From: Bolinopsis microptera
Lineage: Eukaryota > Ctenophora > Tentaculata > Lobata > Bolinopsidae
NCBI RefSeq assembly: GCF_026151205.1
Contig: NC_087082.1
Coordinates: 11,603,997-11,667,996 of the forward strand
Direction: 5' to 3'
DNA: 64,000 bases
This document shows, in pieces, positions 29,318-34,877 of the stretch. The notes under the pieces are model-generated. The model ran no database searches. It worked only from the letters and a program-made list of their open reading frames with translations, and was not told the origin of the DNA. Made by a program: the position numbers and the translations under genes. Each line of letters starts with the position of its first letter. Position 1 is the first letter of the stretch.

Positions 29318-30400
29318 CCACTACTTGACAGGATTAGGTTGAGCTTGTTTGTATAATACAGCACACGATTGTTAAATTGACTTTGTGCTTAAAACAACAC
29401 CGTTTTTGTCTATTTTTAATTCATGTGTCTGTGATATTCTTAAATTTAATGCCATTCATACTGCTTAAATTTAGTTTTCAGTATTCTTTTAAAAAAATTT
29501 CTGCCGAAATTACCTATTTAGAGCAGATTCATGTGGACATGTCTTCATGAATAAACAATGAATTCCTTTTTCACCAATAAATGATTTTTAATTGTAAAGC
29601 ACTATTGTATAACCATAATATAGTCAGAACTAACTTTAGTACTTTCTTATTAGTTCGGATACAACTACTCTGGCTTCACTTCTATAATTTGATCGGAATA
29701 TTCCCAATTGTTCTCTAAATCTAGCAATTTTCAACCCACTATGAGTGACACTGGTAATGTGACAACATTTGAGCAGACTGACCTTGTGGTTGACAATGGA
29801 TCCTTCCAGATGAAAGTTGGTTTTGCTGGAGATGAGGCTCCTAAAAACGTATTATCATCTGTAGTTGGACACCCTAAACACGAAACTGTATTGAATGTGG
29901 AGAAACAAGATTGCTATGTAGGAAATGAAGCACAAAGCAAAAGAGGAATACTAGCTCTCAATTATCCATTAGAAGGAGGTGTAGTTACGAATTGGGACGA
30001 TATGGAGAAGATCTGGCATCACACGTTTTACAATGAGCTGTGTATTGCCCCTGAGGAACACCGAATTATTATGACAGAGCCTCCACTCAATCCTAATTCA
30101 AACAGAGAAAGGATGACTCAAATCATGTTTGAAACCTTTAAATTTCCTTCATTCTATGTTGCCAACACAGCCCTCCTCTCTATGTACGCTTCAGGAAGGA
30201 CCACTGGAGTTGTTGTGAGTTCTGGTTATGATGTGTCTCATATTGTTCCTATTTATGAGGGTTACAATCTTCCTCATGCAACTTTATCTGTAGGTTTTTC
30301 TGGGAAAGAGCTCACAAATCACATGAAGAAACTTCTTGGTGAGGGAGCTTACCAATTCACAACCATGTCTGGGTCAAGTGAGATTTGCAGAGACATTAAG

Positions 30401-30405
30401 GAGAA
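30401..30405. repeat. 5-bp TSD (GAGAA), left copy
   Basis: GAGAA precedes the CACAGTGGTCC terminus and recurs at 31665-31669 after the other terminus. Actin-like gene 2 has the site once (AAGGAGAAGG), which proves insertion. Confidence 0.92.
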
Positions 30406-31664
30406 CACAGTGGTCCACCAGGCTATAATTGAACCAAAATCGAGTATCATGAAATTCTGTTTATTTATTTGTTATTTATCATAAATTATCAGCCGGTACA
30501 TATGCTGAAGACGATAATTAAAAATCTTTCAAAATGTGGAAATGATGTACGATAATATCAACGATTTTTTTACACAGTCCGAAATTCAAGCAATTGGCAG
30601 TAAAAATTGGCCTACATCTGACTGGATATTCATAAAGCAGTCTATATTTGCATTCACTTACTCTTGTTGTTGCTGTTGTACGTGTTGAATACCTGTCTAA
30701 TGAAAAAAAATTCATGTTGATATCTATTTTGGTTGATTTTTCATTTACCCTCAAATTTTATACCCACTTTTTAACTAAAATTTTGGTTTTAAAATAAAAA
30801 AATGTTAGGTAGTGCGCTCGAGTGCACCTAAACCACCTATGGCATCCTAAAGTTCAGATAATTATCTAACTAGCCATAAAAAATTCAACCTGGGACAAGC
30901 TGGGACTTTTTTTTAAATCAGCCACGCCCATATTTGGTCCCAATTATCCCAATTATGCAAAATCACCTTAACAAGCTCAAAACCATGCTTTGGGGTGCTT
31001 TACTTGTAGCTTCTAGTCTCCTGAACACAAATATAAAGTGTTATCATAATTTGATTAAAATTGGCTGAGTTATGAGCAAAATACTATATGACCATATTTG
31101 GGCATACGCGCCAATTTTGATAGATTTTTATAGATTTTAGCCCATAATTTGGCCAATTATCAATATTTTTGGATGAGACAAATGTTATATGTTAGGTAAG
31201 CCTATACTGCACATTCTCTATGAATATCAGCTCAATATCTACCTAACTGTGGATTCTGTGTTCAAATAATGGCAAAAAATGAACAAAATTGCCCATATCT
31301 CAGTTCGCGACATTCGCGAAACTGATGTTGCTCAAAATAATATAACTCAATAGGGTTTCAATATTTTTTAATGAAATTTTCAGAATCAACGTAGAATTGC
31401 CTGAGGACTTTCAGTTGTGGAGTAGAATTTTGAGTCAGGCCTTTTAAACAAATTTAGCGGCCAAATTCTAAAATTTTCAGGGTATTTTTGGAAAAAATCA
31501 ATTTTTTGATTTCTCATTTTCAGCCCTTCTGGTATATTTTGAGGTCTTCTAAGTGCTTTTAAACGTCTTTTTGGGCGAAAATACTCCAGGAAACATATCC
31601 TGAGACAACAAAATGACCTAGAAGGGGTCTATTATAGCCTGACCCCCCTTCGCGGACCACTGTG
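30406..31664. mobile_element. Transib-like non-autonomous element (1259 bp) inside actin-like gene 1
   Basis: The perfect terminal match is CACAGTGGTCC / GGACCACTGTG. A second inverted match, AGGCTATAAT, lies 7 bp inside the heptamer CACAGTG at the left end and 17 bp inside it at the right end, the right having an extra G-rich stretch. The TSD is GAGAA (5 bp), confirmed against the uninterrupted paralogue. Established: Transib and RAG-type transposons have CACWRTG termini and 5-bp TSDs, and CACAGTG is the consensus V(D)J RSS heptamer. Inferred: this element is a Transib or ProtoRAG-related MITE. No transposase coding is seen; other superfamilies with CAC-ends cannot be excluded. Confidence 0.75.
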
Positions 31665-31669
31665 GAGAA
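31665..31669. repeat. 5-bp TSD (GAGAA), right copy
   Basis: Direct repeat of 30401-30405, followed by GGTTTGTTACG as in the uninterrupted paralogue. Confidence 0.92.
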
Positions 31670-32705
31670 GGTTTGTTACGTTTCTCCAGACTATGAAGAG
31701 GATATGCGGTCTGCTGTACTAAGTTCTGACACTGCTGAAATTCAATATGAGCTACCTGACAGTCAGATTATAACTATCATGAAGGAGAGATTTAGATGTC
31801 CAGAAGTTCTGTTCCAACCTTCACTGGGAGGGAAAGAGTCTCCAGGAATTCATGAAATCTGCTACAAATCCATCAAGACGTGTGGTGCAGAGATCTGGAA
31901 GGACCTTTATGCTAATATTGTCCTCTCTGGAGGCACTAATTTATTGCCAGGTATGGCAGAGAGGTTGCAGAAAGAGATTTCTAATCTAGCTCCTCCATAT
32001 TTGAAAGTTAAAGTCATTCATCCACCTGAGAAGAAATATTCTGCATGGACAGGGGGTTCAATACTCGCTTCCCTGTCAACTTTCAAGGAAATGTGGATAA
32101 CCAAAGAGGAGTATGAAGAAGCCGGTCCAAGAATAGTCCATCAGAAATGTTTCAGATAATTTCTCAATATTCAGTCCAATTATTCAGTCCAATTATTCTG
32201 TAGTGTGTTCATAGTGAAAATATCAGTGGGAGACACTTAAACAAACTTTAAAACTTTTGAAGACATTGAACATTGATTTTTTAGAAGAATGGCAGATTTT
32301 GCTGTTAACTTAAATATATTTGGATGCAATTCTTTTTTCTGACTACCCTGTCCTTAATTCTGATTTTATCATATTATTTGGTAACTCGAATGGCATATTT
32401 CCAACTGGTCAGTCTAACTGTTTCAATTAAATTGTAGGTTTATATTTTCACTCTATGATATAATTTTATATTCAAAACTATGCCTTTAAATTAGACTCAT
32501 TAGAGCAAAGATGTAGGCAAATATTTTCTTAAATTAATAGTGAATCGTCTTTACGCTATAAATTTAAAGCTGTGGCACTCTGCAAATAAAGTTCAAAGAA
32601 ACACACAGGAACTAACCTAAGTACTTTCTTGATAGTTTGGACAATGGATAATGAAAACAAAACAACCGTGGTTTCACTTCTATAGTTTGGACCTTTCCTA
32701 CGGCT

Positions 32706-33860
32706 ATGACTGACAGTGAGACAACATTTGAGCAGACTGACCTTGTGGTTGACAATGGATCCTTCCAGATAAAAGTTGGTTTTGCTGGAGATGAGGCTCC
32801 TAAAAACGTATTATCATCAGTAGTTGGACACCCAAAACACGAAACTGTATTGAGTGGGGAGAAACAAGATTGCTATGTGGGAAATGAAGCCCAAAGCAAA
32901 AGAGGAGTACTAGCTCTCAATTATCCATTAGAAGGAGGTGTAGTTACAAATTGGGACGATATGGAGAAGATCTGGCTTTACACGTTTTACAATGAGCTGT
33001 GTATTGCCCCTGAGGAACACTCGATTATTATGACAGAGCCTCCACTCAATCCTAATTCAAACAGAGAAAGGATGACTCAGATCATGTTTGAAACCTTTGA
33101 ATTTCCTTTATTCTATGTCGCCAACACAGCTCTCCTTTCTCTGTACGCTTCAGGAAGGACTACTGGAGTTGTCATAGATTCTGGTTATAATGTTTCTCAT
33201 TCTGTTCTCATTTATGAGGGTTATGTTCTTCCTCATGCAACTAAATGTATAGACATTGCCGGGAAAGAGCTCACAAATCACATGAAGAAACTTCTTGGCG
33301 AGGGAGCTTACCACTTCACAACCATTTCTGGGTCAAGTGAGATTTGCAGAGACATTAAGGAGAAGGTTTGTTACGTTTCTCTAGACTATGAAGAGGATAT
33401 GTGGTCTACTGTAAGTTCTGACACTGCTGAAAATCAATATGAGCTACCTGATGGTCAGATTATAACCATCATGAAGGAGAGATTTAGATGTCCAGAAGTT
33501 TTGTTCCAACCTTCACTGGGAGGGAAAGAGTCTCCAGGAATTCATGAAATCTGCTACAAATCCATCATTGCGTGTGATCCAGACCTCCGGCAGGAAATCT
33601 TGAATAAGTTATTCGCCAATATCGTTCTCTCTGGAGGCACTAATTTATTGCCAGGTATGGCAGAGAGGTTGCAGAAAGAGGTTTCTAATCTAGTGCCTTC
33701 ACATTTGGATGTCAAAGTCGTTCATCCACCTGAGAAGAAATATTCTGCTTGGACAGGGGGTTCAATACTAGCTTCCTTGTCAACTTTTAAGGAAATGTGG
33801 ATAACCAAGCAGGAGTATGAAGAAGCCGGTCCAAGCATAGTCCATCAGAAATGTTTCTGA
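32706..33860 (+). CDS. Divergent actin-like protein, intact
   Basis: An intronless open frame of 384 aa, close to conventional actin length (about 375). Conserved blocks are [106 protein letters not shown] and IVHQKCF. Unlike true actin, the P1 loop has Phe where Gly15 is invariant (DNGSFQIK), the P2 loop reads DSGYNVSH instead of DSGDGVTH, and the catalytic Gln137 position is Thr (VANTALLS). It probably binds nucleotide poorly, hydrolyses slowly or not at all, and may not polymerise normally. It is tandem with the disrupted paralogue upstream, and 5' flank words (AAGTACTTTCTT, TTCACTTCTATA) are shared, so the duplication included the promoter region. It could be an orphan actin or actin-related protein. 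Confidence 0.93.
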
Positions 33861-34550
33861 TAATTTATTACGTTTCTGATATTCATTATATTCCGTCCAA
33901 TTATTCTGTGTTTAAAATGAAAGAATCTACTTCAAGCAAAGTTCAGGAACGCTATTGGAGATACCCAAACAATTTTTAAAATCTTTAAGTTACGAAGTAT
34001 TGAGTGTCTTTTAACAGACAAATTTTAGATTTTTGTGAAAGTTTATTTTTAGCAATTCTTATCGTCTACCAGCTGGTTCCGAAAATTTTATGATTGTTTT
34101 TGTCAATGGTTTGAATTTGTAAATGTGCTTTGAGGTTTGTTAAAGAACTTTAAAATATTAAAATAAGTATTAAACCCAAAAATGCTTTCCCCAAGAAATT
34201 CAAGCATTTAGTGAAAGTAACGTGTACACAGCTTCAACCCCCACAATTTCCATTTTTCTTGAAACTATGTCATGTTATCTTAAAAAATTCGACACATTTT
34301 TCCCGTCATAATATCTTAACAGCTTCTGATAGTAATAATAATATAGATATTATCTCTTTAAACTCTTCATCTTTAATGTCTTCATTATCCCGGATAATAA
34401 TAATATATCCACTCTGTAGAATGTCCATTACAAGCGGTAATGCTGAAGGAATGACATCTCAGCTCACCCGTCCCCTCAACTCCCTCATCACCCTTTGTCT
34501 AACACGGTTATCAAGACAGAACGAGACACATGGTGCAGCACCCTCCCACA
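33861..34550. other. Actin-like 3' flank, no gene recognised
   Basis: A 120-codon open frame at 34211-34573 starts with a non-AUG codon, has no recognisable domain and runs into the 33-bp array. I do not consider it a gene. Confidence 0.45.
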
Positions 34551-34877
34551 TATCCAACCATGACATAAGGTGAGTTATTCACATATCCAACCATGATATA
34601 GGGTGAGTTATTCACATATCCAACCATGATATAGGGTGAGTTATTCACATATCCAACCATGATATAGGGTGAGTTATTCACATATCCAACCATGATATAG
34701 GGTGAGTTATTCACATATCCAACCATGACAATATAAGGTGAGTTATTCACATATCCAACCATGACATAAGGTGAGTTATTCACATATCCAACCATGATAT
34801 AGGGTGAGTTATTCACATATCCAACCATGATATAGGGTGAGTTATTCACATATTATCCAACCATGATATAAGGTGAG
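34550..34877. repeat. 33-bp tandem array (ten or so units)
   Basis: The unit CATATCCAACCATGATATAGGGTGAGTTATTCA repeats head to tail with small variants (GACATAAGG, GACAATATAAGG). Because 33 is divisible by 3, the minus strand stays open and gives an 11-residue repeat, NNSPYIMVGYV. This is a by-product of the array, not evidence of a protein. Confidence 0.93.

Follow-up and report, generated by a model that had tools for sequence, protein, structure and literature searches.

An asymmetric insert splitting an actin-like gene of the ctenophore Bolinopsis microptera is probably a non-autonomous Transib element

How V(D)J recombination arose from a RAG/Transib transposon has long been a question, and the ancestor of the immune V(D)J system is commonly placed in the RAG/Transib group. 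A current question within this field is whether the synapsis of unlike pairs of ends arrived with RAG2 or earlier. In ctenophores, six Transib-like proteins have been described by Tao et al. 2022 (PMC9435367), and all Subgroup I Transibs of that study, for which a legend names Mnemiopsis and Pleurobrachia, combine asymmetric ends with a type I C-terminal tail, Subgroup II Transibs having a different tail. The available text of PMC8355894 describes 12/23-like asymmetric Transibs in fly and mosquito, and asymmetric Transib ends are thus already known and not new in kind. The available text of PMC8289069 gives spacers of 27 and 31 bp for ProtoRAG and names the ends of HzTransib as symmetric. We found no Transib reports for Bolinopsis in the open-licence literature.

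In the window, i.e. the whole stretch of 64,000 nucleotides analysed here from the genome of the lobate comb jelly Bolinopsis microptera, an insert (F1) interrupts one of two adjacent genes, both of which Pfam assigns to actin. The features of this region are:

29741..30405, plus strand: 5' part of the disrupted actin-like gene (Pfam Actin, 7e-66 on 29744-30403; ORF 29708-30484)
30401..30405, no strand: left target site duplication GAGAA (compare the empty site of the paralogue, 33351-33380)
30406..31664, plus strand: F1, 1,259 bp, probably a non-autonomous Transib element (12 near-full-length genomic places including the window; no transposase gene)
30406..30412, plus strand: heptamer CACAGTG of the short-spacer end
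30413..30419, plus strand: 7-bp spacer GTCCACC
30420..30429, plus strand: second end word AGGCTATAAT
30919..31489, no strand: F1 interior, element bases 514-1084 (identity of about 81-87% with the arms of palindromic repeats at other genomic places)
31631..31640, minus strand: second end word AGGCTATAAT of the opposite end
31641..31657, minus strand: 17-bp spacer GTCCGCGAAGGGGGGTC
31658..31664, minus strand: heptamer CACAGTG of the long-spacer end
31665..31669, no strand: right target site duplication GAGAA
31670..32159, plus strand: 3' part of the disrupted actin-like gene (Pfam Actin, 6.6e-55 on 31674-32156)
32706..33860, plus strand: intact actin-like paralogue, 384 aa (Pfam Actin, 2.6e-126; empty site 33351-33380)

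The preliminary description of this stretch had reported perfect inverted ends and a duplicated GAGAA, and both are borne out: the element has perfect 11-bp inverted ends (CACAGTGGTCC / GGACCACTGTG) and GAGAA stands on either side of it, at 30401-30405 and 31665-31669. Its claim that the neighbouring paralogue reveals the insertion point also holds, as the empty site GACATTAAGGAGAAGGTTTGTTACGTTTCT, the 30-base junction without the element, is unbroken at 33351-33380 of this adjoining gene. Removal of the element and of one GAGAA turns the split gene into a single open frame of 1,155 nt, in which 1,049 of the 1,143 bases aligned with the paralogue are identical (91.8%). The F1 insertion is a gene disruption with an empty site in the adjacent paralogue; the frame of the 5' part continues for about 25 codons inside the element and then reaches a stop (ORF 29708-30484). 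Further downstream in the window, a tandem repeat occupies positions 34511-34849, and its minus-strand frame repeats NNSPYIMVGYV.

At up to one mismatch, the 11-bp end word matches twice in the window, both matches being the element ends. Shuffled windows contained a mean of 0.83 matches, and 26 of 100 shuffles gave two or more, so that the word, taken by itself, has no significance in the window; a chance origin of the ends is rejected by their pairing, by the duplication and by the other copies, and not by the word count. Inside the heptamers, the second word AGGCTATAAT follows after 7 bp at one end and after 17 bp at the opposite end, exactly the distances given in the preliminary description. 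The longest frames within F1 reach about 80 aa, and the element therefore encodes no transposase.

Searching the genome (264,652,675 bases in 232 contigs) for F1 recovered at least 12 near-full-length copies, including that of the window (L001-L012), and at least three partial ones (L013-L015); copies were matched at ≥94% identity across the aligned part, and these counts are lower bounds. Exact 5-bp direct repeats flank all 12 near-full-length copies, one of them uninformative (C-tract). In 11 of the 12, CACAGTG is present at both ends, followed by spacers of 7 and 17 bp. The twelfth copy (L008) has the 17-bp spacer at one end, lacks the first 10 bp of the other and has kept its duplication. 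One partial copy, L014, retains its two ends and is flanked by a 5-bp duplication. Pairwise divergence between the 12 copies ranges from 0.4% to 5.2% (median 3.4%), and the window copy differs from its nearest relative by only 0.7%, from which we infer that F1 moved recently.

The 5-bp length that the preliminary description had read from a single duplication recurs in 41 of 42 elements (including the uninformative C-tract copy), comprising F1 (12/12), L014, elements with other end types (27/28) and a complete element on contig C3 described below. This count covers the listed elements among 44 pattern matches together with the F1 copies from the genome search, leaving out L013 and L015 (each with an end lost or decayed), the incomplete L060, L061 and L062, and 26 unpaired ends. 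The exception among the 42 is the element bounded by L114/L115, where, at one of the junctions, two additional bases come after CTATG.

Element bases 514-1084 of F1 match the arms of palindromic repeats, mostly at 81-87% identity, and F1 is thus a mosaic. These repeats (L016-L030) have arms of about 550 bp, and most have GC-rich borders. As the parent of F1 they were rejected, since their arms end at element base 514 (516 once), with mostly GC-rich borders and without CACAGTG in the borders printed. Two longer F1-type copies were also found. One of them (L060, C2:22286100-22296090) has 270 bp in common with F1 and then runs into exactly 5,000 N, which probably represent a gap in the assembly with a longer element hidden in it. 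The other (L062, on C10) shares 285 bp with F1 at 87% identity, followed by an ORF. This ORF was considered as a possible F1 transposase: it belongs to no Pfam family, the protein database contains no relatives of it at E≤0.001, and the genome gives one weak match (34%), in whose surroundings (L067) no Transib-like frame was recognised by eye. Downstream of the ORF lie what by eye are retroelement insertions. Positions 8646-9545 of L062 (together with L070, L071 and L072) contain a Cys/His-containing 100-aa frame without detected relatives, and after it come two stretches with 94-97% identity to one place on C11 and another on C12; exon capture may explain them, or they may be fragments of an autonomous element of unknown kind.

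The spacing of heptamer and second word extends well beyond F1. Ends with the exact heptamer and second word, separated by a gap of any length, numbered 29, and a wider search (CACAGTGGNC, a gap of 1-25, then AKGCTANNWT, allowing spacers of 4-28 bp) returned 144, with no hits for the reversed-pattern control in either case. Among the 100 ends listed of these 144, the distance is exactly 7 or 17 bp in 96 (7 in 50 and 17 in 46), the remainder being 16 (two ends), 8 (one) and 26 (one). Convergent neighbours within 10 kb form 37 listed pairs, 36 of them 7/17 and one 7/16; short/short or long/long combinations are absent from these 37, and 26 ends have no listed partner. Asymmetric ends, a trait of the Subgroup I Transibs, are thus present in 37 of 37 listed pairs. 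In addition to the F1 type (GTCC...AGGCTATAAT), the ends fall into a type F2 (elements of about 1,108 bp, GGCT...ATGCTAGCAT, plus a GGCTGGG variant) and a type F3 (about 909 bp, GGCC...AGGCTATATT), and the long element on C3 is a further member of this set and kin to F2. The 28 elements of other types (all non-F1 listed pairs except C3) have exact 5-bp duplications in 27 cases. One F3 element matches F1 at 82.5% over the first 40 bp, and the 17-bp spacers of F1, F2, C3 and F3 differ from each other at 3 to 8 of 17 positions. Copies of one type do not count as independent, nor does C3 from its relative F2, which leaves about three independent types as evidence for fixed spacing. In one F2 element (L133, C6:16641900-16644893) there is an interrupting insert whose frame of 562 aa by eye resembles a Penelope-type reverse transcriptase.

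The element at C3:4782663-4786589 is complete (3,927 bp), with TATCT on either side, CACAGTG heptamers at both ends and spacers of 7 (GGCTACC) and 17 bp (GGCTGCGCGGGGGGGTC). It contains one of two loci that exceeded the cut-off in a Pfam RAG1 profile search of the genome, the same search giving 0 of 14 in control genomes. Its apparently intact transposase gene consists of two exons separated by a GT-AG intron and encodes a protein of 649 residues (P0001 = LOC134813500), which matches Pfam RAG1 at 1e-12 (47.4 bits, cut-off 25). Compared with PDB sequences, P0001 matches HzTransib at 5.6e-23, amphioxus RAG1L at 3.4e-12 and RAG1 at 1.2e-8; HzTransib, from Helicoverpa zea, is presumably a Subgroup II member. 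P0001 has D, D and E motifs (GFDGSGGH, RLTAMDRK and SEGGIEACNK). In alignments of its paralogue L073 (see below), the second and third motifs lie opposite acidic residues of RAG1, and the first opposite an Asp of HzTransib and RAG1L. We take the RAG1 counterparts to be D708 and E962, assuming our numbering of the mouse RAG1 stretch. An AlphaFold model of P0001 (pLDDT 82, pTM 0.75) returned 49 PDB matches at E≤0.001 in Foldseek, all 49 being RAG1, RAG1L or HzTransib. The C-terminal tail CKHCDMRGHSRRWC fits the motif Cx2Cx3GHx4C given in the available text of PMC7204232. A second gene is absent from the C3 element, its other frames of at least 60 aa reaching at most 119 aa, with the longest antisense to the transposase.

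The one F2 element compared (L132) is 99% identical to the C3 element over the first 499 bp and 92% over the last 37 bp, a likeness typical of gene-less derivatives, which shows how such copies arise in this genome. Between F1 and the C3 element, BLAST aligned nothing at E≤1e-3; compared by eye, the two have in common the heptamer, parts of the spacers and of the second word, and then AAAATCGA. The preliminary description had pointed to a Transib or RAG1-like transposase between matching ends. This expectation was confirmed for the heptamer and the 7/17 spacing by the C3 element and not for ends of exactly F1 type, between which no transposase was found in the F1-type copies examined (L060 and L062 included). 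With P0001 as query, tblastn gave no match in L060, L061, L062, L068, L132-L134, L001 or the window, and the readable parts of these stretches therefore lack a C3-type transposase.

The second RAG1/Transib-like gene (L073:1471-3680, C2:19700386-19702595) is a paralogue of P0001 with an open frame of 571 codons. The Cx2Cx3GHx4C tail is absent, as is an exact CACAGTGG from the L073 stretch, and a lone inward-facing CACAGTG at L073:3975-3981 has neither second word nor partner. About 250 bp away lies what by eye looks like an oxidoreductase gene. L073 may represent either a copy in decay or a transposase that was domesticated; as a partner of F1 it was rejected for the absent tail and for having no recognised pair of ends.

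What we observed directly are the copies, their duplications and the structure of their ends, the empty site, and a complete related element whose transposase gene is apparently intact, and we read the insert, with a probability of roughly 0.93, as a non-autonomous Transib cut-and-paste DNA transposon mobilised in trans by a RAG1-related DDE transposase with a 5-bp stagger. The original suggestion of a Transib/RAG-type element thus gains from the 5-bp duplications in 41 of 42 elements and from the RAG1/Transib transposase of the related C3 element. In the proposed mechanism, with cutting chemistry taken from Transib and RAG biochemistry, the transposase supplied in trans would bind the heptamer CACAGTG and the second word at each end, cut beside the heptamer and join the element to its target with a 5-bp stagger, which would produce the 5-bp duplication. 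We infer that it is a transposase of the C3 type that moves F1. The short (7 bp) and long (17 bp) spacers are about one helical turn apart in length, which could let the same two protein contacts lie on one side of the DNA at both ends. The spacer difference may have a functional role, and our hypothesis is that the 10 bp act as a helical-phase device.

The likeness to CACAGTG might be a coincidence in a cut-and-paste element of another superfamily with ends starting in CAC. Such starts are known from other superfamilies, and F1 itself has no transposase; given 5-bp duplications in 41 of 42 elements and a RAG1/Transib transposase enclosed by ends with the same heptamer and 7/17 spacing, we regard this explanation as extremely improbable. 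Slightly less remote, and still very unlikely, is a RAG-like derivative of the RAGL/ProtoRAG type, moved by a RAG1L-RAG2L pair instead of a single-gene Transib. It would account for the Cx2Cx3GHx4C tail of P0001, which Martin et al. (PMC7204232, available text) treat as defining for RAG1L, and for vertebrate RAG1 being the top Foldseek match by E-value. The same type I tail is, however, common to Subgroup I Transibs (Tao et al., PMC9435367), and the C3 element carries a single gene between its ends instead of a RAG1L/RAG2L pair. P0001 is also nearest to HzTransib, with 84.5 bits vs. 48.9 for RAG1L in the sequence comparison and 203 vs. 127 bits in the profile comparison.

Accepting the insert as a non-autonomous Transib, it is a separate matter whether its asymmetry does anything, and we consider the odds about even that the 7/17 arrangement is inherited and without a role, common to these elements by descent, with any two ends able to work together. 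As copies within a family are not independent, the end types reduce to roughly three (F1; F2, its variant and C3; F3), and the available text of Martin et al. (PMC7204232) describes invertebrate RAGL proteins as fairly insensitive to end asymmetry. Against a role-less asymmetry, the spacings of 7 and 17 were kept while the long spacers came to differ at 3 to 8 of 17 positions, none of the 37 listed pairs is short/short or long/long, and asymmetric ends improve the activity of ProtoRAG according to the available text of PMC8289069. That 7/17 represents a working rule of pairing short with long ends, used by a Transib transposase without a RAG2 partner in a near-basal animal lineage, is a tentative proposal to which we give somewhat less than even odds. 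If true, the logic of the 12/23 rule, with ends one helical turn apart and only unlike pairs used, would predate both RAG2 and the nonamer. With their simple end difference, recent copies and a complete relative whose transposase is apparently intact, the elements of Bolinopsis microptera offer a clean natural system for studying whether spacer asymmetry has a role, presumably without RAG2.

Among known systems, the Subgroup I Transibs agree in having ctenophore hosts, asymmetric ends and a RAG1-like transposase with a type I tail (here that of C3). They differ in species, sequences and, compared by the main-text description, in the exact 7/17 spacers, and the window element is gene-less. HzTransib (PDB 6PQN series) is the closest solved protein to P0001 by sequence, with a fold in common, whereas its symmetric ends set it apart from F1 and C3. 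ProtoRAG and other RAGL elements have in common with the Bolinopsis elements a CAC-type heptamer, 5-bp duplications and the Cx2Cx3GHx4C tail, and ProtoRAG also has asymmetric bipartite ends (27/31); in contrast, they have a RAG2-like gene and other spacer lengths, and the ProtoRAG heptamer is CACTATG.

With the 12/23 recombination signal sequences (RSS), the elements have in common the heptamer consensus CACAGTG at 7 of 7 positions (consensus from the available text of PMC8289069) and one short and one long end about one helical turn apart (10 vs. 11 bp). Unlike RSS, these are ends of a mobile element and not signals of gene segments, the spacers are 7/17, and the second word does not resemble the nonamer ACAAAAACC: an A-rich nonamer at 12 or 23 bp was not encountered, the words being AGGCTATAAT, ATGCTAGCAT and AGGCTATATT at 7 or 17 bp. 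The parallel drawn earlier with 12/23 spacing therefore stands insofar as the asymmetry is constant across several end types, and falls short in that there is no nonamer and 7/17 is not 12/23. For these reasons, and because asymmetric ends have already been published, the resemblance to RSS is not unique and does not prove a 12/23-type rule. Judged from the RAG1-related transposase, the heptamer likeness would reflect homology, and the likeness in spacing is best described as an analogy.
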